Both the position numbers and the translations under genes were made by a program. A model generated the notes under the pieces. That model was given only the letters and a program-made list of their open reading frames with translations, did no database searches and had not been told where the DNA came from. This document shows positions 35,531 to 55,357 of a DNA stretch of 64,000 nt, piece after piece (positions within the stretch are counted from its first letter, which is position 1; each line of letters opens with the position of its first letter). This DNA is from Meiothermus sp. (GTDB lineage Bacteria > Deinococcota > Deinococci > Deinococcales > Thermaceae). The stretch lies in the NCBI RefSeq assembly GCF_026004075.1, contig NZ_BPIK01000001.1, forward strand, positions 846,041 through 910,040, written 5' to 3'.

Positions 35531-35615
35531 TGTACCAAGTCCATCTCGCTCAGATGCTTTCTTCAAAAGAGAGCGAAGGTGGTGAACTGTCCAATAAACA
35601 CGTAGGAGGCTAGAA

Positions 35616-37349: not shown

Positions 37350-37360
37350 ACGCCTTCTGG

Positions 37361-37388
37361 GGCAAGGGGTGGCCCACCACCCCTTGCC
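37361..37388 (+). other. Intercistronic hairpin after the binding-protein gene
   Basis: Perfect 12-base stem GGCAAGGGGTGG/CCACCCCTTGCC with a four-base loop, between the binding-protein stop and the first permease. There is no T-run, so it is more likely an mRNA-stabilising or attenuating element that keeps the binding protein in excess over the permeases. TATGCT at 37391-37396, eight bases before the next ATG, may be an internal promoter. Confidence 0.6.
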
Positions 37389-37404
37389 TTTATGCTGAGG
37401 TTCT

Positions 37405-38601: not shown

Positions 38602-38613
38602 GGGGGGATGGGT

Positions 38614-40185
38614 ATGCTACGAAGAGTGCAAATGAATACCGCCCCGCAGGCCAACCGCAGTTTTTTTCAGCAAGCCTGGATTCGCTTCAAGCGGCATCCC
38701 CTGGCCCGGCTGGGTGCCGTGGTGCTGCTGGTGTTTTATCTGGGCGCCCTGTTTGCCGATTTCCTGGCGCCTTATCCAGAAGAGAAAAGCTTCCGCGATT
38801 TTTCTTTTGCCTCGCCTACCCAGATTTTCTGGCGCGACGAGCAGGGGCGTCTGACCCGGCCTTATGTGTGTGCTTCTGAGCGGCGCCGGAACCTCGAGAC
38901 CTTCAAGGTCGAGGTCATCACCGACTGTGAGAAAGGCCGCTATCCCATCTACTTTTTTGTGAAAGGGGAGCCTTACCGCTTCCTGGGGCTCATCCCTACC
39001 GACCTGCGCTTGATGGGCGGGCCTTGGCTGCTGGAAGACCAGGCCAAGCTTTTTCTGTGGGGCACCGACGACTTTGGCCGGGACATCTGGGGCCGTATCT
39101 GGTTTGGCGGTCGTATCAGCCTGACCATTGGTATTTTTGCGGTAGCCCTGGCCCTCATTATCGGTATCTTCATGGGCAGTATCTCCGGCTACTACGCCGG
39201 TCGTCCGGTTACGTTCAGTATCGGGATACTCAACCCACAGTTCTGGGCTTTTATTCGGGGCAGTCCCTGGTACACCCACCTGTTGGCTGCTTTGGGGCTG
39301 GTGCTCATCGCTGGCCTGCTGCTGGGCATGGGGTATGGTTACCAGAACTACATCCGCCCCGACCTTCAGCGGGTTAGCACGCTGGCTCTGGGCGCGCTGG
39401 GCCTGGTGGTCGGGTTGGTGTTGCTTGGGGGAATACTGTACGCCTTGGTCTGGAAAAGCCACCTGGCCAGGGCTTTGCTCTGGCTTTCGGCCTGGGTGGG
39501 CATCGCCTGGCTGCTCTGGATTACGGTCTGGGGTTTCTGGCAGAGCAGCCGGGGCCTCGAGGCCATCGTAGCGGCCTTGATTGGTGCGGTGTTGCTCGGG
39601 GCAATCGGCTATATTCTGCTCTGGCCCCGGATCGAATTTGACCTCGACACCATCATCATGCGCACGGTCGAGGTGCTGGCGGCCATCCCCGACCTCTTCT
39701 TGCTGATCATCCTCTCGGTGCTGATTCCCATGGAAATGCCGCCGGCGGTGCGCTTTGTGCTGGTGGTGACGATTCTCTCCTTTGTGAACTGGGGTGGGCT
39801 GGCCCGCATCATCCGCAGCCAGGTGCTGCAACTGCGCGAGATGGAGTTTGCCCAGGCTGCGCAGGCCCTGGGCGCTGGCGATGCCCGCATCATCATCCGA
39901 CACGTGTTGCCGGGAACCTACACCTATCTGATTGTTGCCGTTACCCTGGCCATCCCTGGGTTCATCCTGGGCGAGTCGGGCCTCTCCTTTTTGGGGCTGG
40001 GCATTCAGGAGCCCGCTACCTCCTGGGGCCTTATGCTTTCCAAGGCCCAGGCCACCGGTATCACAGCCTTTACCGAGCGGCCCTGGCTTCTGATCCCAGG
40101 GGTATTCATCCTTTTGGCGGTTTTGGCGTATAACTTCATGGGTGATGGCCTGCGCGATGCGCTTGATCCTCGCACCAAGGTGTAG
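38614..40185 (+). CDS. Oligopeptide ABC transporter permease (DppC/OppC-like) with a large membrane insertion
   Basis: 523 residues, against about 280-350 for the family. The DppC core is clear: first helix with RFKRHPLARLGAVVLLVFY, WGTDDFGRDIWGRIWFGGRISLTIG, and the coupling loop EMEFAQAAQALGAGDARIIIRHVLPGT. Two additions are seen: a loop of about 95 residues between helix 1 and the GTDDFGRD motif, and about 145 residues with four hydrophobic segments inserted between SGYYAG and DTIIMRTVEVLAAIP. ATG at 38614 is chosen because a run of seven G ends six bases before it. ATG at 38608 is possible. Confidence 0.9.
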   Translation: MLRRVQMNTAPQANRSFFQQAWIRFKRHPLARLGAVVLLVFYLGALFADFLAPYPEEKSFRDFSFASPTQIFWRDEQGRLTRPYVCASERRRNLETFKVEVITDCEKGRYPIYFFVKGEPYRFLGLIPTDLRLMGGPWLLEDQAKLFLWGTDDFGRDIWGRIWFGGRISLTIGIFAVALALIIGIFMGSISGYYAGRPVTFSIGILNPQFWAFIRGSPWYTHLLAALGLVLIAGLLLGMGYGYQNYIRPDLQRVSTLALGALGLVVGLVLLGGILYALVWKSHLARALLWLSAWVGIAWLLWITVWGFWQSSRGLEAIVAALIGAVLLGAIGYILLWPRIEFDLDTIIMRTVEVLAAIPDLFLLIILSVLIPMEMPPAVRFVLVVTILSFVNWGGLARIIRSQVLQLREMEFAQAAQALGAGDARIIIRHVLPGTYTYLIVAVTLAIPGFILGESGLSFLGLGIQEPATSWGLMLSKAQATGITAFTERPWLLIPGVFILLAVLAYNFMGDGLRDALDPRTKV

Positions 40186-40266
40186 CTAGGGGCCCGGATC
40201 GCGACAAAGGTGCTTTCCCAGGTTGCATGATCCGTGATGTTCAGGCCAAGCTAACCCAGTTGGCGA

Positions 40267-40272
40267 TATAAT
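40267..40272 (+). promoter_or_regulatory. Possible internal promoter before the ATPase genes
   Basis: A perfect TATAAT lies 36 bases before the first ATPase gene, within a 123-base gap. No matching -35 box was found, so support is weak. Confidence 0.35.
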
Positions 40273-40308
40273 GGCAAAATCTGCGGTTGCAGTGCTCTAG
40301 GAGTTGGA

Positions 40309-41333
40309 ATGGACGAGAAACGGCTGGTGGATGTAAAAGACCTCAAGGTTCACTTCTTTACCGACGACGGCGTGGTCAAAGCCGTGGATGGGGTGTCCTT
40401 TCACATTGACAAAGGCGAGACCCTGGCGGTGGTAGGGGAGTCGGGCTCGGGCAAATCGGTCACGAGCCTGGCCATGATGCGCCTGATTCCCAACCCACCG
40501 GGCAAGATTGTGGGCGGGCAGATGCTCTTCCGGGGCAAAGATGGCAAGGTGCGCGACCTGGTCAAAGAAGACGAGGCCACCATGCGCAAGATTCGTGGCA
40601 ACGACATCGCCATGATCTTTCAGGAGCCCATGACCAGCCTCAACCCGGTCTATACGGTGGGCGATCAGATTGCCGAGGCCATCGTGCTGCACCAGGGTAA
40701 AAGCAAAAAGGAGGCGCTCGAGCAGGCCGCCGAGATGCTCGACCTGGTGGGCATCCCCGAACCCAAAAAGCGCCTGGCCAACTACCCCCACCAGATGTCG
40801 GGGGGTATGCGCCAGCGGGTGATGATCGCCATGGCGCTGTCCTGTAACCCTTCGCTCCTCATCGCCGACGAGCCCACCACCGCCCTGGACGTGACCATCC
40901 AGGCCCAGATTCTGGAGCTCATGAAAAAACTCCAGGAGGAGATCGGCATGAGCATCCTGTTCATTACCCACAACCTGGGCGTGGTGGCCGAGATGGCCGA
41001 CCGGGTGGTGGTGATGTACGCAGGTCGGGCCGTCGAGGAAGCCGATGTGGTGCCCACCTTCAAGAAGCCCCTGCACCCCTACACCATGGGCCTCTTAAAC
41101 TCGGTGCCCCGGCTCGATCTGGCGGCCACACACCAGCAGCGCCTGGAGGCCATCCCGGGCAACGTACCCAACCCGCTCAACCTGCCCCCGGGCTGTGCCT
41201 TCCACCCGCGCTGCAAGTTCTTCAAACCGGGGTTGTGCGACACCGAGACTCCCGTGCTGCAGGATGCTGGAGAGGGACATATGGTGCGCTGCGTGCGCTG
41301 GGCTGAGATTCAAAAAGGCGAGGCGGTGGGAGC

Positions 41334-41337
<4 letters not shown>
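40309..41337 (+). CDS. Oligopeptide ABC transporter ATPase (DppD/OppD-like)
   Basis: 342 residues: Walker [10 protein letters not shown]-loop [18 protein letters not shown], signature [12 protein letters not shown], Walker [14 protein letters not shown]-loop FITHNLGVV. The C-terminal oligo_HPY extension has four cysteines ([16 protein letters not shown] ... VRC), a pattern that can hold a 4Fe-4S cluster in DppD-type ATPases. Its stop overlaps the start of the next gene by four bases. Confidence 0.95.
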
Positions 41338-42344
<1,007 letters not shown>

Positions 42345-42361
42345 CCACAGCCCATGAGAAG

Positions 42362-42385
42362 AGCGCCCTCATTGGGCGCTTTTTT
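42362..42385 (+). terminator. Terminator of the oligopeptide ABC operon
   Basis: AGCGCCC, loop TCATT, GGGCGCT followed by a T-run (42380-42385). Intrinsic terminator just after the last ATPase gene. Confidence 0.92.
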
Positions 42386-42458
42386 GTTTGGAGGTCAGTT
42401 CAATGCGCAATGAGCCTTCTCTCATCCTGGTAGATAGGGGGGATGATTTACTGGGCAC

Positions 42459-43733
42459 ATGCGAAAACAGTTGTTGTTAGGGGCAATGGCGCTGCTGGGT
42501 GCAGTAGAGGCCCAGGAAGCGGTCATTTACCGGGGCTTTGCCGAGCTAAGGCAGCCGCAAACCTTACCGCAAAACGAGTGGGTCTGGGAGCCCGGCGAGG
42601 CCCTGTTTCAAAGCCTGGTTCCGGGAACCCTGCGCTTGATTGGGGTGGCCGAACAGTCGCGGCGTGTGGAGGTAGCGGCCCAGCCGAACCCTCTACTGGC
42701 TTATGTGGGCAAGGAGGTGCAGTTTTTCTGGGAGGGCCAGTGGCGCAAGGCCACCCTGGTGAGCGCCGAGCGGAATCTATACCTGTACGAGGGCCGCTAC
42801 CTGGTGGGGCTGCCCGGAACGGTGGCCTACCCCGACCCCAGCGGGTTTAGCGCTGCGCCCGGCCCCAGGGTTACCTTCCTCTACCAGGGGGCAGGGGCGG
42901 CCACGCTGGCCTACCTGACTCGAGCCCTCACCTGGAGCCTGCGCTACACCCTCGAGGATGGCGAACTCACGGGCTGGGCCACCCTGACCAACGCGCTGGG
43001 CCGCCCCTTGCAGCTGGGCCGAACCGAACTGGTAGCGGGGAGCGTGCCCTTGCTGGAGGGAGGGTTCAACGTACCGGCCCCCCGCCCCGAGACCCGGATG
43101 CTACAGGCCGCCCCTGCCATGGCCGACGCTACAGAAGCAGAGTTTGTGGGGGAGACAGCCGGCACCTACCGCTACCGCCTGCCAGGGGTGGTGAGGCTCG
43201 AGCCCGGCCTCACCGAGCTGCCCTTTATGAGGGCCCGGGTACAGCCGGTATATTTGTGGCGCTTGCAAACGGGTTTTAGCACCGGGCGGGAGCTGGCTTT
43301 CGTGCGGGGTTTCCGCTTCGTGGCACCAGAAAACCTGGCTGCCGGGGTGGTGAGCATCCGCGAGCAGGGGGTGTTTGTGGGGCAGGCCAGCACCGGCGAT
43401 ACCGCCAAAGGCAACAACGTGACCTTGATACTGGGCGCCGATCCCGAGGGCCGGGCCACCCGACAGGTGGAGCAACAGACCCGCAACCGCTTCCGTGTGA
43501 CCACCAGCGTGCGCAACCCCAAGTCCTATCCGGTTGAAGTCGAAATCCAGGAGACAATGCCACAGCCCTTCACCCTGGAAGTGCTAGATTCCGCCTCGGG
43601 ACAGACGGCTAACGCCGCTGTTCAGCCAGGGGAGGGCCTCGAGCGCACCCCTGAGGGCTACCGCATCCGCTTTACCCTGGCCCCAGGCCAGAGCCGTTCA
43701 TATGTCTATACCCTCACCCTGCAACAGCGTTAG
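42459..43733 (+). CDS. Exported DUF4139-like protein
   Basis: 424 residues with signal peptide MRKQLLLGAMALLGAVEAQ. The middle region ALTWSLRYTLEDGELTGWATLTNALGRPLQLGRTELVAGSV matches the DUF4139 pattern (W-x-Y-x-L and LxAG), and the C-terminal part (VTTSVRNPKSYPVEVEIQETMPQPF) resembles the same family. Function unknown. All-beta, probably periplasmic. TTTACT ends six bases before the ATG. Confidence 0.68.
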   Translation: MRKQLLLGAMALLGAVEAQEAVIYRGFAELRQPQTLPQNEWVWEPGEALFQSLVPGTLRLIGVAEQSRRVEVAAQPNPLLAYVGKEVQFFWEGQWRKATLVSAERNLYLYEGRYLVGLPGTVAYPDPSGFSAAPGPRVTFLYQGAGAATLAYLTRALTWSLRYTLEDGELTGWATLTNALGRPLQLGRTELVAGSVPLLEGGFNVPAPRPETRMLQAAPAMADATEAEFVGETAGTYRYRLPGVVRLEPGLTELPFMRARVQPVYLWRLQTGFSTGRELAFVRGFRFVAPENLAAGVVSIREQGVFVGQASTGDTAKGNNVTLILGADPEGRATRQVEQQTRNRFRVTTSVRNPKSYPVEVEIQETMPQPFTLEVLDSASGQTANAAVQPGEGLERTPEGYRIRFTLAPGQSRSYVYTLTLQQR

Positions 43734-43752
43734 GTGTTTTAAGGGTATGCAC

Positions 43753-43781
43753 TTCGTACTGACCCGTGGGTCAGGTAGAGT
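43753..43781 (+). promoter_or_regulatory. Promoter with internal palindrome before the S9 peptidase
   Basis: TTCGTA (43753-43758), 17-base spacer, TAGAGT (43776-43781), then six bases to GTG at 43788. The spacer is largely a perfect palindrome, CTGACCC-GT-GGGTCAG (43759-43774), placed where a repressor would block RNA polymerase. Confidence 0.5.
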
Positions 43782-43787
43782 ATGGGG

Positions 43788-45638
43788 GTGACAACCGACC
43801 TGCTCTATCAACTCCGTTTTCTGTCCGACCTGACCGAAGGCCCCGCCGGTAAGCCGCTCTTCGTCTATACCGATATCGAGCGGCCCGAAAAAGACCCGCC
43901 CCGCTACCGCAGCCGCCTGGCTACCTGGGACGGCGGATTGCGCCTTCTAACCCAGGGCGAGGCCAAAGCGCCGTTCTGGCGCGGTGATTACATCTACTTC
44001 ACCCGCAAGGTGGACAAGGCCAGCCAGCTTTTTCGCCTGCCCCTGTCGGGCGGCGAGGCCGAACAGGTGACCCAGTTCAAAGCTGGTATCGAGGGCTATA
44101 AGGTAAGCCCGGATGGCCGCCGGATTGCCTTGCTGACTCGAGGGGAGTACGAGCCGCCCAAACCCGACGCGCCCCGCATCTACGAGACCTGGCCGGTCAA
44201 GTTCGATGGCAGGGGCCTGCTGCCGGGGCAGCCCAGGGAGCTCTGGCTGTGGGAAAACGGACAGGCCAAACCCCTGGTCAAGCTGGCTCAGGACGTGGAG
44301 GAAGTGGTGTGGGATCTGGCGGGCACGGGGCTGTATTTTACGGCCTCGAGCACGCCGCAGGAGCGCTGGGGCTGGATCCAGCGGGCCTACCACGTGGGTT
44401 TGGACGGCCAGATCAACGAACTGTTTGGGGGCGTGGGGCCCATCGTCGGCCTGGAACCCACCCCCGACGGCGGCCTGGTCTACCTGGCCCACGCCTGGGA
44501 GCGGGGGGGTGGCACGGAACACAAGCTCCACTACCGCAGCGTGGATGGGCAGGTGCGTGTGCTGGCCCAGGGTTCTTTTTTGAACTCGGTCAACTCGGAT
44601 GTGCGCATCGGCGCGGGAACCCAGACCCCCAGGATGGGGCCCGATGGGCGGATTTATGTGGTGGTCACCCAGGAGGGGTCGGCCCGTCTCTTGGCGGTGA
44701 CGCTCGAGGGCCAGGCTGAGTTCGTCAGCCCAGCAGAGGCTAGCATTCTGGGCTTCTCCTTTTGCGCTAACAAGCTCTACACCCTTTCGGAAAACTTTAC
44801 CCGTGGGGCTTGCCTGGCCCAGCAGGGAACGGTGCTCTTCGACCCCAACGCCGATGCGCTGCCCATCCTGCCCGTCCCCCTCGAGGTGCGCTACAAGGCC
44901 CCGGAAGGCCATACCGTGCAGGGCTGGGTGCTGCTTCCGGAAGGCGACGGCCCCCATCCGCTGATTCTGTACATCCACGGGGGCCCCCACACAGCCTTCG
45001 GCAACGCACTGATGCTCCAGCTCCAGCTCTTCCGCGCCGCCGGGTTTGCGGTGGCCTACTGCAACCCCCGGGGCTCCACCGGCTACGGGCAGGACTATAC
45101 CGACCTGGCCCGGCGCTGGGGCGAAATTGACGAGCAAGACCTGCTGGGCTTTTTAGACCACGTGCTGGGCCAGTTTCCCCTGGATTCTAACCGTGTTGCG
45201 GTGGCCGGGGGGTCGTATGGGGGTTACATGACTAACTGGCTCACCGCCCGCCACCCCGAACGCTTCAGGGCCGCTGTTACCGACCGCAGCATCTGCAACT
45301 GGACGAGCTTTTACGGTGCTGCCGATATTGGGCCGCGCTTTACTTACCTACAGCTTGGGGCTAAACCCTGGGAGAACCCCGAGGTGCTGTGGCAAAAAAG
45401 CCCGCTCTCGCTGGCCCACCAGGTACAAACTCCCACTCTGGTGGTGCACTCCGAGCAAGACCATCGCTGCCCCATAGATCAGGGCGAAACCTGGTACACC
45501 GTGCTTCTGCAAAAGGGCGTGCCCACCCGGTTCTTCAGGGTTCCCGAGGAGGGACACGAACTGAGCCGCTCAGGACGGCCCGACCGCCGCATCGCCCGGC
45601 TGGAGGCCTACCTGGAGTGGTTTAAGAAGCATCTGTGA
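43788..45638 (+). CDS. S9-family serine peptidase (acylaminoacyl-peptidase type)
   Basis: Prolyl-oligopeptidase family exo/oligopeptidase, 616 residues. The N-terminal part (about residues 10-360) is a beta-propeller. The C-terminal alpha/beta-hydrolase has IHGGPHTAFG (oxyanion), GGSYGGYM (nucleophile serine), SEQDHRCP (aspartate) and EEGHEL (histidine). Cytoplasmic, no signal peptide. GTG at 43788 is preferred over ATG at 43782 because the -10 box abuts that ATG, while its distance to the GTG equals the six-base spacing seen elsewhere. Confidence 0.92.
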   Translation: MTTDLLYQLRFLSDLTEGPAGKPLFVYTDIERPEKDPPRYRSRLATWDGGLRLLTQGEAKAPFWRGDYIYFTRKVDKASQLFRLPLSGGEAEQVTQFKAGIEGYKVSPDGRRIALLTRGEYEPPKPDAPRIYETWPVKFDGRGLLPGQPRELWLWENGQAKPLVKLAQDVEEVVWDLAGTGLYFTASSTPQERWGWIQRAYHVGLDGQINELFGGVGPIVGLEPTPDGGLVYLAHAWERGGGTEHKLHYRSVDGQVRVLAQGSFLNSVNSDVRIGAGTQTPRMGPDGRIYVVVTQEGSARLLAVTLEGQAEFVSPAEASILGFSFCANKLYTLSENFTRGACLAQQGTVLFDPNADALPILPVPLEVRYKAPEGHTVQGWVLLPEGDGPHPLILYIHGGPHTAFGNALMLQLQLFRAAGFAVAYCNPRGSTGYGQDYTDLARRWGEIDEQDLLGFLDHVLGQFPLDSNRVAVAGGSYGGYMTNWLTARHPERFRAAVTDRSICNWTSFYGAADIGPRFTYLQLGAKPWENPEVLWQKSPLSLAHQVQTPTLVVHSEQDHRCPIDQGETWYTVLLQKGVPTRFFRVPEEGHELSRSGRPDRRIARLEAYLEWFKKHL

Positions 45639-45654
45639 GCCAGAGCGTAAAGGG

Positions 45655-45690
45655 CCAGGGGCCGGTTGAACCTGTCGAGGCCGGCCCTGG
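45655..45690 (+). terminator. Hairpin after the S9 peptidase gene
   Basis: CCAGGGGCCGG/CCGGCCCTGG stem with one bulged G and loop TTGAACCTGTCGAGG, followed by TTATTTT. Probably ends the peptidase message. The loop shares CCTGTCGA with the hairpin at 19259-19293. Confidence 0.6.
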
Positions 45691-45752
45691 TTATTTTCTA
45701 GAACGGTTGTACCCCTCAAAGAGCAAACACTTTTGCCAGCCCCGATCTACCC

Positions 45753-45782
45753 AAAAAGAAAAAGGCGGGCAGGCCCGCCTTT
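45753..45782 (-). terminator. Terminator of the Roadblock operon
   Basis: Ten-base inverted repeat AAAGGCGGGC/GCCCGCCTTT with a 2-base centre. On the minus strand the stem is followed by TTTTTCTTTTT. Lies 15 bases past the stop of the DUF3467 gene. May also work weakly on the plus strand. Confidence 0.85.
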
Positions 45783-45796
45783 CGTGTTCGCTACGA

Positions 45797-46090
45797 CTAG
45801 GCTTTGGAGGTGTCCATGGCCTCGGGGATGACCCCGTAGGTCTCCTCGTAACGCTGGATGTTTTCGGCCAGACTGCGCAGCAGGGCCTTGGCGTGCTGGG
45901 GGCTGGTGATAATCCGGCTGGTCACCACCGCCACCACCTGATTGGGCTGTCCGCCGGGCTGCATCAGGGCAAAGTCGAGGTAGAACTCGTTTTTTTGATG
46001 GGAGAAAATGGCAAAGTTGGCATATTTGCCAAGGGCGGTTTCGCGATCGATGTCTACGCGCAGCTCGGGTACCTGTGAAACTTCACTCAC
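45797..46090 (-). CDS. DUF3467 family protein
   Basis: 97 residues. The pattern LRVDIDRETALGKYANFAIFSHQKNEFYLDFALMQPG and VAVVTSRIITSPQHAKALLRSLAENIQRYEETYG matches DUF3467, small beta/alpha proteins of unknown function. Overlaps the end of the upstream Roadblock gene by four bases (ATGA), so the products are probably made together and may interact. Confidence 0.8.
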   Translation of the reverse strand: MSEVSQVPELRVDIDRETALGKYANFAIFSHQKNEFYLDFALMQPGGQPNQVVAVVTSRIITSPQHAKALLRSLAENIQRYEETYGVIPEAMDTSKA

Positions 46091-46440
46091 GATAAAGCCT
46101 CCTGGAGGCGTGGAATACTTTTTTTGAGCTGGAAGCGTACTCGACCCAGGCTTTGCATGGAGTCTATCAGCACAACCAGCAGGTATCCACCCTCGAGCGG
46201 AACCAGCAAAACTGGCCCCTCGGGGTACTCTACCATGACTTCTTCTACCTCGCCGCGCTCGAGCTCCTGCGACAATGCCCTGGCAGAAGCTAAAGCGGTA
46301 GAAGCCGCGCTACCCAGAAAATCTATGTCCGGGGCCTGTTCGGTGCGTAGGCTTTCCACCACAAACCCGTCCTCGGCAACAAGCGCCGAGGCCACTACCC
46401 CCTGGGTTGCTTGTAGCTCTCGAATTACTTCTTGAACCAT
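46087..46440 (-). CDS. Roadblock/LC7 (MglB-like) protein
   Basis: 117 residues with the Roadblock fold: helix VQEVIRELQATQGVVASALVAEDGFVVES, then LLVPLEGGYLLVVLIDSMQSLGRVRFQLKKSI. Such proteins dimerise and act as GTPase-activating partners of MglA-type small GTPases in polarity and motility. No GTPase gene is adjacent. Starts 11 bases after the stop of a second Roadblock gene. Confidence 0.88.
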   Translation of the reverse strand: MVQEVIRELQATQGVVASALVAEDGFVVESLRTEQAPDIDFLGSAASTALASARALSQELERGEVEEVMVEYPEGPVLLVPLEGGYLLVVLIDSMQSLGRVRFQLKKSIPRLQEALS

Positions 46441-46451
46441 ACCATCACTCC

Positions 46452-46784
46452 CTAAATGGTTTGTGCCAGGCGCATGGCCAGACGGGAAAGCTCGAGCCCG
46501 ATATTTCTACGATCGGCACCTTTCTCAACTACAGCCCCCAGGCAGTAGCCATTGAATACCACAACCAGCACCTCCCGGTGTTCGGTAGCGAGGGTGAAGC
46601 GCCGGAGTTCACCGCCCAGGCCATGGGCAAGGGTGCGACTGGCTCGAGCCAGGGTGGCTAGCTCAGCAGCCAGCAACTCGGGTTCCGGCGTGCCTTTGCC
46701 AACGCTTTCGATGACCAAACCATCCTGGCTGGCCAACACGACCTGACGCACACCCAGCGGTACTAGGGTCTCGAGCATTTTCAT
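46452..46784 (-). CDS. Second Roadblock/LC7 (MglB-like) protein
   Basis: 110 residues from ATG at 46784 (MKMLETLVPLGVRQVVLASQDGLVIESVG). Same fold as its neighbour but with low identity, which may allow a heterodimer. A TTG at 46808 is a less likely start, as GGGGG lies about six bases before the ATG. First gene of a three-gene unit with the other Roadblock and the DUF3467 genes. Confidence 0.83.
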   Translation of the reverse strand: MKMLETLVPLGVRQVVLASQDGLVIESVGKGTPEPELLAAELATLARASRTLAHGLGGELRRFTLATEHREVLVVVFNGYCLGAVVEKGADRRNIGLELSRLAMRLAQTI

Positions 46785-46876
46785 GCACGGCCCCCGCAAT
46801 CGTTCCAAACCATACGGGATTTAGCCTAGCACAGAGCTCACCAGGGTTTTGTCCAATTGCACAAGGGAGCAGCCTT

Positions 46877-47464
46877 TTACTGATATCCGCGCCGGTTCTC
46901 CAGCGCCCTAGCCAGGGTAACTTCGTCGGCGTACTCGAGGCTGCCCCCTACCGGCAGGCCGTAAGCGAGCCGGGTCGAGCGAATATTTTGCTGATTCAAG
47001 CGTTCGGCCAGGTAACCTGCAGTGGCCTCACCCTCGACGGTCATTCCTGTTGCCAGGATCACCTCACGAACACCTTCCAGGCGAGCAAAAAGTTTTTCCA
47101 GATTAAGCTGCTCTGGCCCGACGCCCTCCAAGGGATTCAAGGCCCCGCCCAGCACATGATATAGGCCATTGTACTCGCCGCTGCGCTCGATAGCCATCAG
47201 ATCCGAGATGGTCTCAACCACGCAGATTACCGATGTATCCCGCTCGGGGTCGCCGCAGATGGGGCACAATTCGCTCTCGGCCAGATTGCCACACCGTGGG
47301 CAGGGGTGCAGGGCTTGTGCAGCCTGCAGGCTGCTTTGTAGCTCCGCCGCCACATCGGGGTTTTGTACCAAGAATAGTCCTAGCTTTTGTGCGCTCTTAG
47401 GCCCCACCCCCGGCAGACCTGCCAGGGCGCGAACGAGCTTGAGGAGCCTTTCAGGATAGCGCAT
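46877..47464 (-). CDS. recR: Recombination protein RecR
   Basis: RecFOR-pathway protein that helps load RecA onto gapped DNA. 195 residues from ATG at 47464 (MRYPERLLKLVRALAGLPGVGPKSAQKLG, helix-hairpin-helix). A C4 zinc motif CPRCGNLAESELCPIC and a Toprim domain (ICVVETISDLMAIERSGEYNGLYHVLGG) follow. The C-terminal RLAYGLPVGGSLEYADEVTLARALENRR is typical. Lies 28 bases after ybaB, the usual pairing. Confidence 0.96.
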   Translation of the reverse strand: MRYPERLLKLVRALAGLPGVGPKSAQKLGLFLVQNPDVAAELQSSLQAAQALHPCPRCGNLAESELCPICGDPERDTSVICVVETISDLMAIERSGEYNGLYHVLGGALNPLEGVGPEQLNLEKLFARLEGVREVILATGMTVEGEATAGYLAERLNQQNIRSTRLAYGLPVGGSLEYADEVTLARALENRRGYQ

Positions 47465-47492
47465 AAGATTTACCGCTGTTTGTGGAATACCG

Positions 47493-47807
47493 TTAGAACA
47501 TGTTGCCCAGCATATTACCAATGCCGCCCAGCTCGCGGCTCATCTCTTTTTCCGAAAGGTCGTGGGCTTTTTTCTGGGCATCCTGAATAGCCACCAAGAG
47601 CAAGTCTTCCAGGGCCTCGAGGTCGTCCTTATCCACGGCCTCGGGCCTGAGCTTGACACCTTGAATCTGCCCATGCCCGTTGGCGGTGATCTCTACCAAG
47701 CCCCCGCCTGCGCTGCCTACTACCGTCATCTGCCCCAGGCGCTCCTGAACCTCTGCTGCTTTTCGCTGGGCCTTCTGGGCCTCCTTCATGAGTTTTTGAA
47801 TGTTCAT
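47493..47807 (-). CDS. Nucleoid-associated protein YbaB/EbfC
   Basis: Small dimeric DNA-binding protein, 104 residues from ATG at 47807 preceded by GGAGG. N-terminal coiled coil MNIQKLMKEAQKAQRKAAEVQERLGQ, then EITANGHGQIQGVKLRPEAVD. Probably influences nucleoid structure or RecR-linked repair. The inverted repeat ACACCTA-9-TAGGTGT (47839-47861) lies upstream, with a GATAAT box next to it. Confidence 0.93.
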   Translation of the reverse strand: MNIQKLMKEAQKAQRKAAEVQERLGQMTVVGSAGGGLVEITANGHGQIQGVKLRPEAVDKDDLEALEDLLLVAIQDAQKKAHDLSEKEMSRELGGIGNMLGNMF

Positions 47808-47879
47808 CTGTTTCCTCCGCAACAACTTCTCTATTATCACACCTACATAGGCTTTAGGTGTAGACAAGAGGTGGGTGAA

Positions 47880-49079
47880 CTATGCCTGTGTACGTTCTGC
47901 TACGGGACGGGGAATGCCTCCCCGCAAAATAACCGTGAAGACCACCAGGAATACTGTAAAGCCCGACAGCCACAATACGGTTAGTACCCCCAGACGCGGT
48001 TCCAAGAGTCCGGCCAGAAGCGTTCCGAGTAGCACAGCGCTTTGCATGGTAGCACCAAAAGCCGCCATGATGCGCCCCCGCAACTCGACCGGGGCTGATA
48101 GCTGAATAATTGAGCGAGCAGGGACGATGAACATGGTATTGAGCAGGCCCATCAGTAGGGTGGCAATACCGGCCCAGATGGGGTTGGGAAACAACCCTAA
48201 GGAGGCGAAAACAATCCCCCACAGGGCCAGGCTGCGTATGAACACCACCTCCCGCGTCCAGCGCTTGATGAGCGGCATGGTGACCCATAACCCCAGCACG
48301 GCCCCCGCGGCCATCAGAGCCTCGAGTACACCGAAGCCTTGCACACCGATTTTCAGTGCCCCCACAGCATATACAATGCCCAGAGCGCCTTCTACCGAGC
48401 CAAAGGCGGCTGCCAGGGCTAAGGTTCCAATAGTGCGACTGAGCACGGGGTTTTGCCACAACGGCTGAATGCCTTCGGCCACGGCTTTAAAATAACTGCC
48501 CCTGCCTGCTTTGCCCGAGAGCACAGGCAGAAAAATAAGGAACCCGGCGGCAATCAGGTACGATAGAACGTTGATCCAGAAGGCTGGTACGGGGCCCACA
48601 GCAGCCACCAAAGTACCTGCAAGCGCTACAAAGGCGATCTCAGAAAAACGCTGGATGAACATCATCAGCCCATTGGCGCTATCAAGTGCCGATTCGGGCA
48701 CCATATCGGGAATGGCGCTGTTGCTGGACGAGTTGTATAGTGCTTCGAAAACAGCCATTAGAAAGGAGATCGCCATCAATATCGGCATCGAATCCATGGC
48801 GAAAAGCGGAATGCCAGCCACCAGCACGGCTCGAGCCAGATTGGAAATTGCCATGAGAGTGCGGCGATCGTAGCGGTCGGCCAGCGGGCCCATTAACGGT
48901 CCCAGCACTGCGCTTGCAAAAAACTGTGCACCCAGGATGAGCGAGATCCAGACTGCATTCTGGGTTTCCTGGTAGGCCACAAACAGTAGGGCAATGCGAT
49001 GAATTTTGCTGGCTGCAAAGGAAAACAAGGTAGATACAAAGAGCCATCGAAATGCTGGGTGCTGTAGCGCGCTCCACAT
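47880..49079 (-). CDS. MFS transporter (exporter-like)
   Basis: 399 residues, twelve hydrophobic segments. GPLMGPLADRYDRRTLMAISN is the MFS loop 2-3 motif, and the layout resembles the EntS/MFS_3 efflux group. Substrate unknown. A 16-base palindrome CATAGGT-TG-ACCTATG overlaps its start codon. No regulator gene is adjacent. Confidence 0.88.
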   Translation of the reverse strand: MWSALQHPAFRWLFVSTLFSFAASKIHRIALLFVAYQETQNAVWISLILGAQFFASAVLGPLMGPLADRYDRRTLMAISNLARAVLVAGIPLFAMDSMPILMAISFLMAVFEALYNSSSNSAIPDMVPESALDSANGLMMFIQRFSEIAFVALAGTLVAAVGPVPAFWINVLSYLIAAGFLIFLPVLSGKAGRGSYFKAVAEGIQPLWQNPVLSRTIGTLALAAAFGSVEGALGIVYAVGALKIGVQGFGVLEALMAAGAVLGLWVTMPLIKRWTREVVFIRSLALWGIVFASLGLFPNPIWAGIATLLMGLLNTMFIVPARSIIQLSAPVELRGRIMAAFGATMQSAVLLGTLLAGLLEPRLGVLTVLWLSGFTVFLVVFTVILRGGIPRPVAERTQA

Positions 49080-49092
49080 AGGTTGACCTATG
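49077..49092. promoter_or_regulatory. Palindrome over the MFS gene start
   Basis: CATAGGT-TG-ACCTATG, a perfect inverted repeat that includes the ATG of the MFS gene (49079-49077). TATCAT lies ten bases before the start. A repressor bound here would block transcription or translation start. Confidence 0.4.
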
Positions 49093-49185
49093 ATATGGAA
49101 TCAACAACGAGTAGTAAATATAAACGTGGTTTAGGCGAGCGGTTGCAACGATAATAACCCAGGAGCGAATGCCGAAGTCTCAAGA

Positions 49186-50973
49186 TTAAACCTCACGGAT
49201 AGGATCGATAGCAACCAGGCTGTGGGCTACCCGTGCGCCTTCTCGAGCCAGCACCAACCCGCCTTCGGGCACCCGCCAGACCAAGAGGTCTTGCAGCTTG
49301 CGCGGGATTAGGCCGGTGGATGAAACGTAGACGCTATCGTCCTGATAGCGCAGCGATAGCACGGTGCTGCCTGCTTTAATGGTGCTAGGGCTATCGCCAA
49401 CCGTGGTCGAGTTAACATCGCCCAAAGTATCGCGGGAAGGCGGGCTGAAGCCCAGCCACTCGTTTAGCTCACGGTGCAGTACCTGGGCATAGTCCTCGAG
49501 CCCTAGCATCTGCGCTATTTCGGCCAGGCGAGCTGTCCACTGCGGGTTACGCTCCATGCGCCCCCGAACCACCTCGAGGCCCTTGCGGGCAAAATCCTGG
49601 AGGTTGTCTATCGGCGCCTCGCCGTATTTGTTGGCCGACTCCGGGCCAAACTGGGCATAGTTGATCTCACCCTTGAGGCGTGCTGAAAGGGCCCGTAGCA
49701 GACGCAGGTAAGCAAAGTGGTGTTCGGGCCACATTAGATAAGCGAGGACGCGTCCTTCGGCCAGCAGGCTGGATATGCTTGCGGCTTCCCGGGGACCAAT
49801 GCGAAGGTGGAGATAGTCCTTGTACCGAACCACGTGCAGTTCGGCGTCGGGTAGAGTTAGGCTAAAGGCTGCATCCTCCTCGATGATTCGTTCCTGCTGC
49901 GCTACGCTGATACCAAAAACTTTCCCCGCTTGTGAGATGCCTACCTCGTGGTTCCAGAAATAGAAGCGCTGGGGCATCAGGCGAAGATTGAGCGCTCTGG
50001 CCTCACGCGGAACAGCCTCGAGGGCGTACTCGGGATTTTGGCTACCCAGAATTTTTTGAGGGATTTGCGGCCAGCTTGCTTCTCCCATAGGACTGGGCAG
50101 GTAGCGGGTGAGCAAAGCGATCAGGTGCTCGATAGCTGCCGAGAAGCGCGCCCGGTCTTCTTCCATGACCAAAGCCATGCGTCGCTCCTCGGCGGCGGCA
50201 TTGTGCAGGCGCTCTTCTAGAGCTCGAATCTCGCCAACGCTCAGGTTTTGGCGATGGGCTTCCTCGAGCGCCCGGCGCAGGGCCTCGAGGCTGGGCCCGC
50301 GGGTGCTGGTGCGGAGCGAGCCTTCGCTTTCCAGTATCCGTCGAGCAAACCGTCTGATATAAGGTACCGTTTCTTCTTGCGGCAGCTTGAGTTTGTTGGA
50401 AAGAGCGAAAGCCTCACGAAACAGCTCGAGGAGTAGATTTTTAGCGATAGTTAGGTTATCGAGGTGAACCCTGGGGTCTGAGACGCCCGGAATGGGGTGG
50501 GCTAGCGTGAAGCGTGAGAGGTTGTAGTCCTGGGAAAAATGGGGGCTTTTGGAATAGGCCTCGAGGTTTTGCAGGATGGCATAGGCCATGCGGAGTTCAT
50601 CGCGCTTGCCCTGGTTAAGCGCCTTGGCTACACGAAGCAGATCACGATCTAGACGGCTCCAGTACACTGCCTCGGCCAGCTTATCCAGGGCTTCCCGTTC
50701 GGGGCTAAACGAAGCCCCCTCATCTTCAACCAGAATTGCGCTGAGATCTGGAACGTTTTCGTCTACGACGGTTTTGTAGCCAGGCCGATGAGCCTTAAAG
50801 CGTCCGTCGATGTCGCGAAACTTCTTGGCCAGGGGGCCGGGCAGGTTGGCCTGAATTAAGGTTTGTCGCAAACGGGTTAGGCCGGCCATTCCCCCCTTGG
50901 GTTCGTTGCCTGCTACAAGGTCATCTACCTTGTATTCATAGAGCTCGAGTAATTCAACCAAGCCTGCCTTCAT
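49186..50973 (-). CDS. Protein of unknown function (595 residues), divergent from the PP2C/kinase pair
   Basis: Not recognised. Soluble, no signal peptide or membrane segment. Mostly helical and charged to about residue 400: a region with RYLPSPMGEASW and a probable coiled coil near 225-270 (LEALRRALEEAHRQNLSVGEIRALEERLHNAAAEERR). The C-terminal about 90 residues look beta-rich (STVLSLRYQDDSVYVSSTGLIPRKLQDLLVWRVPEGGLVLAREG). It shares a divergent promoter region with a PP2C phosphatase and a kinase, so it may be a substrate or regulator of that pair (inference). TATAAT lies nine bases before its ATG. Confidence 0.75.
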   Translation of the reverse strand: MKAGLVELLELYEYKVDDLVAGNEPKGGMAGLTRLRQTLIQANLPGPLAKKFRDIDGRFKAHRPGYKTVVDENVPDLSAILVEDEGASFSPEREALDKLAEAVYWSRLDRDLLRVAKALNQGKRDELRMAYAILQNLEAYSKSPHFSQDYNLSRFTLAHPIPGVSDPRVHLDNLTIAKNLLLELFREAFALSNKLKLPQEETVPYIRRFARRILESEGSLRTSTRGPSLEALRRALEEAHRQNLSVGEIRALEERLHNAAAEERRMALVMEEDRARFSAAIEHLIALLTRYLPSPMGEASWPQIPQKILGSQNPEYALEAVPREARALNLRLMPQRFYFWNHEVGISQAGKVFGISVAQQERIIEEDAAFSLTLPDAELHVVRYKDYLHLRIGPREAASISSLLAEGRVLAYLMWPEHHFAYLRLLRALSARLKGEINYAQFGPESANKYGEAPIDNLQDFARKGLEVVRGRMERNPQWTARLAEIAQMLGLEDYAQVLHRELNEWLGFSPPSRDTLGDVNSTTVGDSPSTIKAGSTVLSLRYQDDSVYVSSTGLIPRKLQDLLVWRVPEGGLVLAREGARVAHSLVAIDPIREV

Positions 50974-50981
50974 TCAAACGG

Positions 50982-50987
50982 TATTAT
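50982..50987. promoter_or_regulatory. Shared bidirectional -10 element
   Basis: TTATAA-centred sequence in a 22-base gap between two divergent start codons. Read on the plus strand it gives TATTAT eight bases before the PP2C ATG. On the minus strand it gives TATAAT (50988-50983), nine bases before the ATG of the 595-residue protein. Both -10 boxes overlap almost fully, so the two directions should compete for RNA polymerase. Confidence 0.55.
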
Positions 50988-50995
50988 AAGGTGTC

Positions 50996-51754
50996 ATGCG
51001 ATTGGCACGGCTCGAAATTGCCACAGAATCCAACATTGGTCGGCGTCGCCGGAACAACGAAGATTTTCATCGTGTGGCAGTACATCCGACCCCGGCTGGA
51101 AACCTGGTGTTGCTGGCCGTGGCCGATGGTATGGGTGGGGCCGAGGCGGGTGAACTGGCCAGTAAACTGGCCATCGAGGGGGTTAGCTCGGCGGCTAAGT
51201 CGTATGCTGAGCACGCAGCAACAGGTCGCCCTGGCGTCAGCCTCAACCTGGTCATGGACAAGGCTTTCAAGCTCTCCCAGAGGCGAATTTTGCAAGAAGG
51301 TGAGCGGGTGCCCTCGCGCAAGGGTATGGGCACCACCCTAACAGCCGTGATGCTAACCGAATGGAACCGGCAGGCTGTGATCGGGCACGTAGGAGATACC
51401 CGTGCCTACCGATACTCCTCGGGTCGCTGGACGCTTTTAACGCAGGATCACTCCTGGGTAGCTCAGCAGGTGCGCCAGGGTGTGCTGAGTGCCGAACAAG
51501 CCGAAGACCACCCCTGGAAGCATATGCTTACCCAGGCCCTGGGGCTTTCGGATGTTAAACACGACATCATCTCGGTCAATTTTGCCCCTGGCGAGGTGTT
51601 GGTGCTGGCAACCGATGGCTTGTACGGGCTAGTGCCCCCCGAGGAGTGGAACATTACCGGGGATCTTAAATCGGCCTTGGAGAGCTGGGTGGCCAAGGCA
51701 CTGATGCGCGGTGGCACCGACAATATCACGGTAGTAGCGGCGAGGTTCAGATGA
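50996..51754 (+). CDS. PP2C-type Ser/Thr protein phosphatase
   Basis: Metal-dependent phosphatase, 252 residues. Motifs: RRRNNEDFH, VADGMGGAEAGELASKLAIEGV, GMGTTLTAVML, GHVGDTRAYRY, TQDHSWV, LATDGLYGLV and GGTDNITVVAARF. Cytosolic, no extra domain. Its stop overlaps the kinase start (ATGA), so phosphatase and kinase are co-translated, the usual pairing of a bacterial signalling couple. Confidence 0.95.
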   Translation: MRLARLEIATESNIGRRRRNNEDFHRVAVHPTPAGNLVLLAVADGMGGAEAGELASKLAIEGVSSAAKSYAEHAATGRPGVSLNLVMDKAFKLSQRRILQEGERVPSRKGMGTTLTAVMLTEWNRQAVIGHVGDTRAYRYSSGRWTLLTQDHSWVAQQVRQGVLSAEQAEDHPWKHMLTQALGLSDVKHDIISVNFAPGEVLVLATDGLYGLVPPEEWNITGDLKSALESWVAKALMRGGTDNITVVAARFR

Positions 51755-53766
51755 GTTACTTGCTGGCTTTATTGTTGGTTGCTATTTCCACGGCCCTGAT
51801 GCTGCGCCTTGGGCGCACCTGGCCGATGATGGCCGTGCTGGCTTTACTGCTGGGGGGTTTGGGCGTGCTGGGGGCCGAGCTCTGGGTGCTGGCAACCGCT
51901 TTTGCTCTGGGGTTGGGGGCGATGTGGCTGCCCAAGACCACCCGGGTTAACTTCAAGCCGCGGCCCAAACCGGCTTCCCGAAAACCCAAAGAAAAAGCAA
52001 AGGCTTCCACAGGGAACAATGTTCCTGGCCTCGAGGCCCTCTATGAGATTCAGGAAAAAGTGGGTATTGGGGGTATGGCTACCGTTTACAAGGGCCGAAG
52101 CAAAAAAGATGGGCGCCTGGTTGCGCTCAAAATTCCCCAAGAAAAATACGTGGGCGACCCTCGGTTTGTGCGCCGCTTCCACCGCGAGGCTGAACTGCTA
52201 GCCCACCTTGATCACCCCGGAATCGTCAAGGTCTACGACCACGGCAACCAAGGTGATACTCATTACATTGCCATGGAGTACCTCGAGGGGGAAGGGCTTG
52301 ACCGTCTTATTGAAAACAAGCGCCTTTCCATCAAAAGCATCGTGCAGATTATGGGTCGGGTGGCTGAGGCCCTGCAGCACATTCATGCTCAGGGTATCAT
52401 TCACCGCGATATCAAACCCGGCAACATTATGGTGCTCAAAAATGCTCTGCGCGACGATGGCAGTGTAGATCCACGTGGGGTTCGCCTGATGGACTTTGGG
52501 ATTGCCGCAGGCAAGGTGCTGACCCGTCTGACCATTACCGGGGCCCGCATTGGAACCCCGGTCTACATGAGTCCCGAACAAGCCAAAGGCCAGCGCATTG
52601 ATCACAAGTCGGATATCTATAGCCTGGGGGTGGTGTTTTACGAAGCCCTGTGTGGACAGCCCCCATTCCAGGGCGCCTATGAAGCGGTCATCCACCAGCA
52701 GATCACCCAGATGCCTACACCCCCTAAGCAGGTCAACCCCGAGATTCCCCAGGTGCTTTCCGACCTGATTTACCGGATGCTGGAGAAAGACCCCGAAAAG
52801 CGTCCCGGCCTCGAATCGGTGCTGGAGGTGTTGCGTGGTAAATGGGAGGAAGACCCGGGCCTTGCGGCTCCTTCTTACCTGGCCTTGGCGGTCGAAACAA
52901 AAAAAGGCACCCTTCGACTGATGGATCTGAATGGTACCCTCATGCGGATGTGGAGTGGGGTGGGAAGTGGGCGGGGTATGTTCCCATCTCCACCGCTTGC
53001 CCTGGCTGTGGACAAACATGGAGGCTTCTGGATCAGCTTGTTTGAGTATGGTGGGGGGGCAGTGCGCTTACTGCACCGCTTCGATGTAGAAGGCGAAATC
53101 ACCCACTCGATAGCGCCTTATGGTATGAAGCTGGGGGAGCTACTTTATCCGGTTTCACTGGCCGCTATGCCAGATGGCCTGCTGGTGCTGGACGGTGAAG
53201 CCTGCACCATTACCCGCTTTGATCTCGAGGGCAACCCCATGGGTCGTTTTGGTGGTGCCGGGCCGGGCCGGGGTACCTTCGATTCGCCAAAAGTCTTGCT
53301 AAGCAGCCCAAATCACATCTTCGTGCTTGACTACGGCAATCGCCAGGTGCAGCGCCTCGACCATAAGGGGCAGTACATTTCTCGTTACGCCTTCCGCAAG
53401 AGCCGGGAGTCGCAAGAGCTACGCCTGCTGGGTGGCCTGGGCCTGACGCCACAAGAGGAGCTTTTGATCTACGATGTGGACAGCCAGAAAATCCGCAAGC
53501 TTTCCCTCGAGGGCGAGGTGCTTCAATCGCTGCCTCTGCCTGTGGCCGAGGGTGAGGACCCCAACAGTCAGGTGGAGATGGTGGTGCTGGAGGATACCAT
53601 TTACGCCATGCGGCGGGGCGGTACCAAAATTCATCGCATCAAGCTGGGGGGTCAGGCACTGCCCAGCCTAGAAGTGTATGCCCCCTTGCGCGGAATTGCC
53701 ATCTGGCACAATACCTTGCACGCCAAAGCCGAAGCGTCCGCCAGCCGCTCGGCCCGAGGCGTGTGA
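51751..53766 (+). CDS. Ser/Thr protein kinase with N-terminal membrane anchor and C-terminal NHL-like propeller
   Basis: 671 residues. Two or three hydrophobic segments in residues 1-60 anchor the protein, followed by a basic proline-rich linker. The Hanks-type kinase domain spans about 98-360: GIGGMATVYKG, K127, HRDIKPGN (218-220 HRD), MDFG (248-250) and TPVYMSPEQ. From about 375 to 665 there are repeats such as RFDVEGEI, RFDLEGNPMGRFGGAGPGRGTFDSP and RLDHKGQYISRY, as in NHL/six-bladed propellers. No membrane segment separates kinase and propeller, so both should be on the same side, the cytoplasm. Confidence 0.92.
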   Translation: MSYLLALLLVAISTALMLRLGRTWPMMAVLALLLGGLGVLGAELWVLATAFALGLGAMWLPKTTRVNFKPRPKPASRKPKEKAKASTGNNVPGLEALYEIQEKVGIGGMATVYKGRSKKDGRLVALKIPQEKYVGDPRFVRRFHREAELLAHLDHPGIVKVYDHGNQGDTHYIAMEYLEGEGLDRLIENKRLSIKSIVQIMGRVAEALQHIHAQGIIHRDIKPGNIMVLKNALRDDGSVDPRGVRLMDFGIAAGKVLTRLTITGARIGTPVYMSPEQAKGQRIDHKSDIYSLGVVFYEALCGQPPFQGAYEAVIHQQITQMPTPPKQVNPEIPQVLSDLIYRMLEKDPEKRPGLESVLEVLRGKWEEDPGLAAPSYLALAVETKKGTLRLMDLNGTLMRMWSGVGSGRGMFPSPPLALAVDKHGGFWISLFEYGGGAVRLLHRFDVEGEITHSIAPYGMKLGELLYPVSLAAMPDGLLVLDGEACTITRFDLEGNPMGRFGGAGPGRGTFDSPKVLLSSPNHIFVLDYGNRQVQRLDHKGQYISRYAFRKSRESQELRLLGGLGLTPQEELLIYDVDSQKIRKLSLEGEVLQSLPLPVAEGEDPNSQVEMVVLEDTIYAMRRGGTKIHRIKLGGQALPSLEVYAPLRGIAIWHNTLHAKAEASASRSARGV

Positions 53767-54074: not shown

Positions 54075-54599
54075 ATGATGCTAAAACCCGGTGATTCCGC
54101 CCCGCTTTTGCAAATACAGGATGCCTTAGGGCGAACTGTAGACCTGGCTGAACTGGTGCGACAAGGGCGTTATGTGGTGTTGTGGTTTTATCCAAAAGCC
54201 AACTCTCCCGGCTGCACGGCCCAAGGTAAGAAGTATGCGGAGTTACACGAGGCCTTCCGGCAAATGGGTGCCGAGGTGTTTGGCGTGAGCAGAGACCCTG
54301 CTTCGGCTCAGTGCGACTTTATGGATAAACTGGCGCTCGAGGGCGGCCTGATCCCCGATTTGTCGGGCCGGCTGGGTCGGGCGTTTGGAGTGGGGGGATT
54401 CCTGGGCCTAGGCTCCTTGTTGGGTTTATACAACCGCGATACCATTCTAATCAACCCCCAGGGCAGGGTCGAGCAAGTTTGGCGCAACGTCAATCCCTTC
54501 CGCGACGCCGAGGTGGTGCTGGACTATCTGAAGTCGAGGATATCCAACCTCGAGGCCCCCGCACCGGCCCAGCCTGCCACTGACCCAAAAGGTTTGTAA
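54075..54599 (+). CDS. Peroxiredoxin (AhpC/TSA, BCP-like), cytosolic
   Basis: Thiol peroxidase, 174 residues. FYPKANSPGCTAQGKKYAEL is the BCP/PrxQ-type site, with the peroxidatic cysteine in PGCT. A second cysteine occurs in SAQCDFMDK and could resolve the disulfide. The C-terminal region GLYNRDTILINPQGRVEQVWRNVNPFRDAEVVLDYL is typical. No signal peptide. An exported paralogue follows 260 bases later. Confidence 0.9.
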   Translation: MMLKPGDSAPLLQIQDALGRTVDLAELVRQGRYVVLWFYPKANSPGCTAQGKKYAELHEAFRQMGAEVFGVSRDPASAQCDFMDKLALEGGLIPDLSGRLGRAFGVGGFLGLGSLLGLYNRDTILINPQGRVEQVWRNVNPFRDAEVVLDYLKSRISNLEAPAPAQPATDPKGL

Positions 54600-54859: not shown

Positions 54860-55357
54860 ATGCGGCATTTTTTGTGGGTACTGTTGCTGCTGGCTCCGGT
54901 ACTAGCCCTAGCGCCCGGCGATCCAGTTAATCTGCCCAAAATACAAGATGCCTATGGCAAGTCGGTAGATCTAGCGGCCATGGCTAAGGAAGGAAAGTAT
55001 CTCCTGTTTTGGTTTTATCCCAAAGCCAATTCGCCTGGATGTACCGCTCAGGGTAAGCGTTATGCAGAACTATACAGCGAGTTCGAAAAGCTGGGTGTGG
55101 AAATTTTTGGTGTGAGCGCCGATCCTGCTGCCGAACAGTGTGCTTTCATTGAACAAATGGCCCTCAAAGGGGCCATGCTCCCCGACCGGGATGGCAGTCT
55201 GGCCCGGCTGTTCAAGGTGGGTGGTTTGTTTGGGTTTTACAACCGCGATACCATCCTGGTGAACCCCCAGGGCCGTATCGAGCGCATATGGCGCAATGTA
55301 AACGCTTTTCGTGATGCCGATACGGTGCTGGCTTATGTGCGTGGATTAAAACGCTAA
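54860..55357 (+). CDS. Peroxiredoxin (BCP-like) with signal peptide
   Basis: 165 residues, a clear paralogue of the preceding gene (same PKANSPGCTAQGK, EQCAFIEQ and FYNRDTILVNPQGRIERIWRNVNAFRDAD), but starting with a signal peptide MRHFLWVLLLLAPVLALA. It should detoxify peroxides outside the cytoplasm. The 260-base gap before it shows no credible gene. It holds an imperfect GGCGCTT/AAGCCGCC hairpin near 54677-54705. Confidence 0.9.
   Translation: MRHFLWVLLLLAPVLALAPGDPVNLPKIQDAYGKSVDLAAMAKEGKYLLFWFYPKANSPGCTAQGKRYAELYSEFEKLGVEIFGVSADPAAEQCAFIEQMALKGAMLPDRDGSLARLFKVGGLFGFYNRDTILVNPQGRIERIWRNVNAFRDADTVLAYVRGLKR

Follow-up and report, generated by a model that had tools for sequence, protein, structure and literature searches.

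Kinases of the PASTA type monitor the cell envelope from the exterior, and in PknD of Mycobacterium tuberculosis the kinase is followed by a membrane helix and an extracellular NHL propeller. NHL domains are often docking platforms, and in TRIM-NHL proteins, of which RING/B-box is typical, they bind protein or RNA. Within the phylum Deinococcota, the published description of Deinococcus radiodurans RqkA (DR2518), in the part of the article accessible to us, is that of a quinoprotein kinase responsive to pyrroloquinoline quinone (PQQ), with PQQ motifs and a WD40 domain (PMC11007091). Phosphoproteins are also known in Thermus, and the accessible text of one report has the kinases for the sites studied as not identified by its authors (PMC12667214). 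Here, we analyzed a locus at positions 49186 to 53766 of a 64,000-nucleotide stretch of a Meiothermus sp. genome (NZ_BPIK01000001.1, positions 846,041 to 910,040; hereafter, the window), in which the gene for a protein of 595 amino acids (aa) without a recognised domain, given the working name Big, diverges from genes for a PP2C-type Ser/Thr phosphatase and a membrane-anchored Ser/Thr kinase with a C-terminal NHL propeller. In most Deinococcota genomes examined, the kinase, PP2C, and Big appear to form one signalling switch, and we assign a probability of about 0.5 to the reading that Big is the dedicated, phosphorylation-controlled partner of a kinase/PP2C switch.

The initial annotation had described a three-gene divergent locus, and its open reading frames (ORFs) were found as claimed. 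According to the ORF list, Big is encoded on the minus strand (49186..50973), with the PP2C gene (50996..51754, 252 aa, assigned by domain and motifs) and the kinase gene (51751..53766, 671 aa, assigned by Pfam, hydropathy, structural model, and motifs) on the plus strand; the kinase ORF overlaps the PP2C ORF by 4 bases (ATGA). Big is up to 87% identical to its counterparts in near relatives named Meiothermus. Literature searches, for which most subscription journals lay outside coverage, found no paper on this locus. Below, G numbers denote genomes, L numbers loci read, and g numbers genera; f1 is Thermaceae, and f2 to f5 are other Deinococcota families.

Among 111 Deinococcota genomes, Big was found in 96, an orthologous PP2C in 92 (called at E ≤1e-50, other PP2Cs of the phylum matching at 3e-43 or weaker), and the NHL kinase in 103; G003 and G005 were scored as lacking the kinase because their contigs end there, and G045 because none was found near split contigs. 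The PP2C and kinase genes are same-strand neighbours in nearly all genomes that have both, with G049 scored as having them apart only since a trimmed match missed the 400-bp limit. Of the 90 genomes that carry Big as well as PP2C, 58 have the two in divergent adjacency, namely, 49/49 of Thermaceae, 7/7 of f4 without genus g19, and 2/3 of f2, with 0/27 in f3 and 0/4 in f5. One alternative is that Big belongs to the phylum core but has no functional relation to the pair, that it merely shares a symmetrical promoter with it in one branch, and that its joint absences with PP2C stem from gene loss in general or from the incompleteness of some genomes. We regard this view as improbable. What speaks against it is that the adjacency is kept in 58 genomes, even where identity falls to ~45% (f1/f4) or, in one f2 genome, to 31%. 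In its favor, Big lies apart from the pair in f3 and f5 and was not seen there next to any consistent functional partner, and the available portion of a study of such elements calls bidirectional promoters common among prokaryotes (PMC12825309). The recurring neighbours of Big in f3 are a class III aminotransferase, an M20 peptidase, and secreted immunoglobulin-like (Ig)/dockerin proteins, and those in f5 are nothing consistent; we read both as reflecting location only. A small ORF of 116 to 137 aa was also observed as a same-strand neighbour of Big in f2 and one f5 genome (L037:10100-10513, L042:7257-7646, L040:9834-10181, and L044), one member of this set giving a weak SAD/SRA match below the cut-off.

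The start codons of Big and PP2C, placed by the ORF coordinates, are separated by a gap of 22 bp (50974..50995), within which lies the palindromic TATTATAA (50982-50989, both strands), reading as a −10-like TATTAT on the plus strand and TATAAT on the minus strand. This sequence was present within the gap in 24 of the 33 linked loci read, namely, 17/17 of the window's genus, two Calidithermus-like loci (L020 and L021), and five f4 loci with a varying gap, and it was absent in seven other Thermaceae loci and both f2 loci. The promoter count omits locus duplicates (L031 to L033, L035, and L036), and 23 further g5 genomes with Big lie outside both this count and the threonine count below; in g5 and g3 loci, the Big start was extrapolated, leaving gap lengths unsure. 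The exact form of GGTATTATAAGG occurs once in the window, and allowing up to two mismatches gave 2 occurrences against 1.42 expected, which is not above chance. The conservation of TATTATAA supports the proposal in the initial annotation that the divergent genes share a promoter element, here a putative one for Big and PP2C. Placed in this way, each −10-like element would start transcription at the ATG or directly beside it, and the short distance of 22 bp between the start codons points to leaderless messages. According to the accessible text of Warman et al. (PMC12825309), promoters of the symmetrical type occur in all prokaryotes, most often with an 18-bp spacing of their start sites.

The two divergent genes also tend to be absent together. 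Both were found in 90 of the 111 genomes, Big only in 6, PP2C only in 2, and neither in 13 (Fisher 8e-11, uncorrected for kinship), such that 13 of the 15 genomes without Big also lack PP2C. These joint absences fall into at least four separate clades, with the kinase mostly retained. An rpoB tree was built for 27 f3 genomes and two outgroups (29 in all, with G095 left out for having no rpoB match), and in it the f3 joint absences occupy three separate places, i.e., G042 with G109, G103 with G110, and G107; since Big and PP2C are unlinked in f3, a single deletion cannot remove both. The fourth clade is the f4 genus g19, with 7 genomes. In its loci L081 and L089, a gene for a major facilitator superfamily (MFS) transporter stands directly beside the kinase gene (~100 bp off in L089), whereas Big and PP2C separate the two in other f4 genomes; in the window, this MFS gene is the next one beyond Big (47880..49079, minus strand), and it is conserved there in most Thermaceae and f4 loci. 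Of the 13 genomes without Big and PP2C, 10 keep the kinase, although the match in G103 is partial and holds a stop; G012, which is 84% complete and lacks all three genes, was not counted as a clade. The PP2C-only genomes are G049 (58% complete) and G082, and the near-identical sister of the latter, G088, has Big split over contig ends. That the joint absence recurs across four or more clades, in three of which the genes are unlinked, is a second argument against Big being functionally unrelated to the pair.

In these distributions, Big is tied more strongly to the phosphatase than to the kinase, which makes a PP2C adaptor a serious rival: Big would be a partner of PP2C, as an adaptor, an inhibitor, or a scaffold directing it, rather than a substrate, and the kinase would also act on other proteins. 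This is possible, though we hold it to be distinctly less probable than a phosphorylated Big. It would account for the way Big tracks PP2C, as well as for the ten genomes that keep the kinase but neither of the other two, and it suits a modular protein with helical parts and two predicted beta modules; on the other side, G046, G057, and G108 keep Big without an orthologous PP2C, and a conserved linker threonine, though found in two families only, fits a modified protein better. The initial proposal of Big as a substrate or scaffold thus gains indirect support from conserved divergence and from co-absence with PP2C, and is qualified in that the strongest tie runs to the phosphatase instead of the kinase.

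The earlier statement that Big has no recognised domain held in all searches. Pfam gave nothing above threshold (best 0.36), including when run on 23 members of alignment A1; NCBIfam, PADLOC, and PHROGs gave no match above threshold; and PDB, queried by single sequence and by profile, gave no significant match. A match to the CATRA-associated small protein family (CATASP, PF20271; 11.2 bits and E 0.36, against a 29-bit cut-off) was judged to be chance, as were sub-threshold, inconsistent matches to PhyR_sigma2 and Dps. Structure prediction and remote-homology search, the checks suggested for this protein in the initial annotation, returned no significant relative or fold match: with the Big model, Foldseek found no match at E 0.001 in PDB or BFVD, and the best VIA-align result, Z 6.1 over 72 residues, is inside the tool's stated noise. 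No match to Big was found in 72,556 plasmid records, and a contig scan using patterns tuned to near relatives, hence a weak test beyond Deinococcota, found 16 loci, all of Meiothermus, Calidithermus, or Thermaceae.

By hydropathy, Big has no membrane segment. Its AlphaFold model, built from 15 sequences, has a mean predicted local distance difference test score (pLDDT) of 82.7 and a predicted template modeling score (pTM) of 0.51, the latter indicating that single parts are better defined than their arrangement. In this model, helical regions alternate with two predicted eight-stranded beta modules, at residues 327-393 (49795..49995, minus strand) and 521-588 (49210..49413, minus strand), the second possibly being a repeat of the first (hhalign E 0.0014 in one comparison, with a probability of only 17.6). 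Two stretches have pLDDT <50, an acidic linker at residues 64-87 and a linker at 510-519, the latter within a low-confidence segment of residues 508-519 (49417..49452, minus strand) that contains P-S-R-D-T-L-G. Threonine occupies position 516 (T516; codon 49426-49428, minus strand) in 29/29 distinct Thermaceae and f4 sequences, and P-[ST]-R-[DE]-T-L-G is present in 27 of these; the count omits L001, which duplicates the window sequence, L030, which has the same protein as L029, and Big fragments spanning <450 residues. Phosphosites typically present as a conserved Thr within a flexible linker, and T516, conserved in f1/f4, is the candidate for one here.

The kinase has the features of a Hanks-type Ser/Thr kinase, i.e., a Pkinase domain (residues 98-359, 52042..52827, plus strand; Pfam 1.3e-56) with intact Gly loop, VALK lysine, HRD, DFG, and (S)PE, and its nearest solved relatives in PDB are PknB, PknA, and StkP. 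Hydropathy and AlphaFold place an anchor ahead of it at residues 1-60 (51751..51930, plus strand), composed of three predicted hydrophobic helices and followed by a Lys/Arg-rich stretch. Strong hydrophobic segments are confined to residues 1-62; the third helix of the window kinase is weakly hydrophobic (1.38), with three clear peaks in several orthologs. The AlphaFold model (mean pLDDT 72.8) shows helices at 2-20, 23-39, and 44-59, then the kinase domain, then six blades, with no helix of membrane type between kinase and propeller. By Kyte-Doolittle mean, no 19-residue window exceeds 1.6 beyond residue 95 in any of 15/15 aligned kinases. The order given in the initial annotation, an N-terminal anchor with the propeller directly after the kinase domain, is borne out by both analyses, and the intervening membrane segment that it had named as evidence to the contrary was looked for and not found. 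Because a Lys/Arg-rich stretch follows the anchor helices, the positive-inside rule predicts, in agreement with the cytoplasmic propeller first proposed, that the kinase and its propeller should face the cytoplasm.

The propeller itself is six-bladed (residues 366-653, 52846..53709, plus strand) and was described at the outset as NHL-like, which agrees with the model, with Pfam in orthologs, and with PDB by sequence and fold. Pfam NHL scores only 0.15 in the window kinase, below the Pfam cut-off, and is above it in 5/5 more distant orthologs scanned (4e-10 to 5e-16); Pfam assigned the window kinase to no PQQ family. By sequence, the propeller matches NHL domains of TRIM2, TRIM3, TRIM71, and Thin in PDB (1e-18 to 1e-12), and by fold, the NHL of Thin/TRIM71; the matches listed include NHL structures complexed with RNA. 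The propeller may dock substrates or bind a ligand. That it is instead a structural cap, neither sensor nor dock, with the kinase controlled solely via association of membrane anchors, seems to us very improbable: such control would be in keeping with an anchor that is kept across kinases despite being their most variable part in sequence, but the propeller is strongly conserved and is retained in lineages without Big and PP2C. As a separate observation on kinases of the phylum, contig C7 of G041 (f2) carries four kinase domains within ~14 kb (35608-49870; L128, L129, L131, and L132).

The adjacent phosphatase contains a Pfam PP2C_2 domain (2.5e-15) with the NEDF, ADGMGG, GD[ST]R, DG, and TDN motifs and an intact catalytic set, as in PP2C (PPM) enzymes; its best NCBIfam model is Stp1/IreP, at 187 bits against a cut-off of 230.

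We propose that the locus would act as a reversible Ser/Thr phosphorylation switch, in which the kinase would be tethered to the inner membrane face by its N-terminal helices, its cytoplasmic NHL propeller would be the docking or ligand-binding platform, and the adjacent PP2C would reverse its action. Big, which may be transcribed from the same symmetrical promoter, would be the dedicated client of the pair, and in Thermaceae and f4 would probably be phosphorylated on T516, in the linker before the last beta module, and reset by PP2C. Several points weigh against this proposal. Phosphorylation of Big is something we infer from its sequence, and Thr is found at position 516 in 0/14 aligned homologs of f2, f3, and f5, so that modification there cannot be a phylum-wide mechanism. 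In none of the 27 f3 and 4 f5 genomes that have Big and PP2C is Big next to the PP2C-kinase pair, and a simple scan for sigma-70 promoters detected no two-hexamer site in the gap. Besides G046, G057, and G108, which hold Big without an orthologous PP2C, G080, G092, and G093 also seem to be Big-only, G080 being 67% complete and G092 and G093 having no detected kinase ortholog either. Conversely, the kinase remains without Big in g19 and in four f3 genomes, and its persistence without both partners in ten genomes means that it must have other targets or roles. The co-absence counts, moreover, are corrected for phylogeny only by tree reading, and several genomes are incomplete. A further step, which we offer tentatively and with well under even odds, is that Big founds a class of effectors that is new, controlled by phosphorylation, and so far known from Deinococcota only; an inward-facing membrane kinase would switch it, using its NHL propeller to recognise a cytoplasmic ligand, protein or RNA. 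If this is true, the phylum has a core circuit for signalling that differs from the PASTA kinases, which sense the cell wall.

Elsewhere around the locus, two Roadblock/LC7 (MglB-like) ORFs (46087-46440 and 46452-46808) lie beside a DUF3467 ORF (45797-46090) in a minus-strand stretch at 45797-46808. Two AhpC/TSA-type peroxiredoxin genes follow in succession 3′ of the kinase gene (54075-54599 and 54860-55357, plus strand), and a pair or a single copy is found there in several relatives too.

Compared with known systems, the locus resembles those of PknB/PrkC/StkP-type Hanks kinases with Stp/PP2C in that PP2C and kinase form a same-strand pair, and differs in that the kinase has no PASTA, carries its anchor before rather than after the kinase domain, and has a C-terminal NHL propeller predicted to lie inside the cell. 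The Stk1/PknB PASTA kinase model NF033483 reached only 297.5 bits against its cut-off of 450, through the kinase part alone, with the NHL propeller in the place of PASTA; a kinase/PP2C pair whose sole extra domain points inward would have a different, intracellular input. PknD shares the order of kinase and six-bladed NHL propeller; the membrane helix between them is missing here by hydropathy (15/15) and in the AlphaFold model, so that the window kinase departs from the external-propeller type and its propeller should be cytoplasmic. TRIM-NHL proteins (TRIM2/3/71 and Thin) share the NHL propeller in fold and sequence, fused here to a bacterial kinase without RING/B-box. The gap resembles the symmetrical bidirectional promoters of Warman et al., as far as their accessible text describes them (PMC12825309), in that two divergent genes are separated by putative −10-like elements that overlap, one on each strand. 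RqkA, compared by its published description in the accessible part of that article (PMC11007091), is a kinase of the same phylum with a propeller-type domain, of the PQQ quinoprotein type as opposed to NHL. Relatives of the window also carry other, soluble kinases, distinct from the NHL kinase, that lack a membrane segment and have a PQQ-type propeller at the C-terminus (L071:1872-3728, L072:3281-5095, L073:2124-3971, and L125:361-2283), with a PQQ_2 match in those of L071 to L073 and similar repeats by eye in that of L125; these probably include the counterpart of RqkA and are better candidates for it than the window kinase. The initial distinction of this kinase from PASTA and external-propeller kinases therefore stands, whereas a cytoplasmic propeller is not unique to it, given these soluble kinases and RqkA. 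We rate an inward propeller on a kinase as not new in the phylum and the orphan partner family Big as the interesting part, a conserved protein that, with its linker Thr, offers a direct and cheap test in Thermus or Meiothermus.

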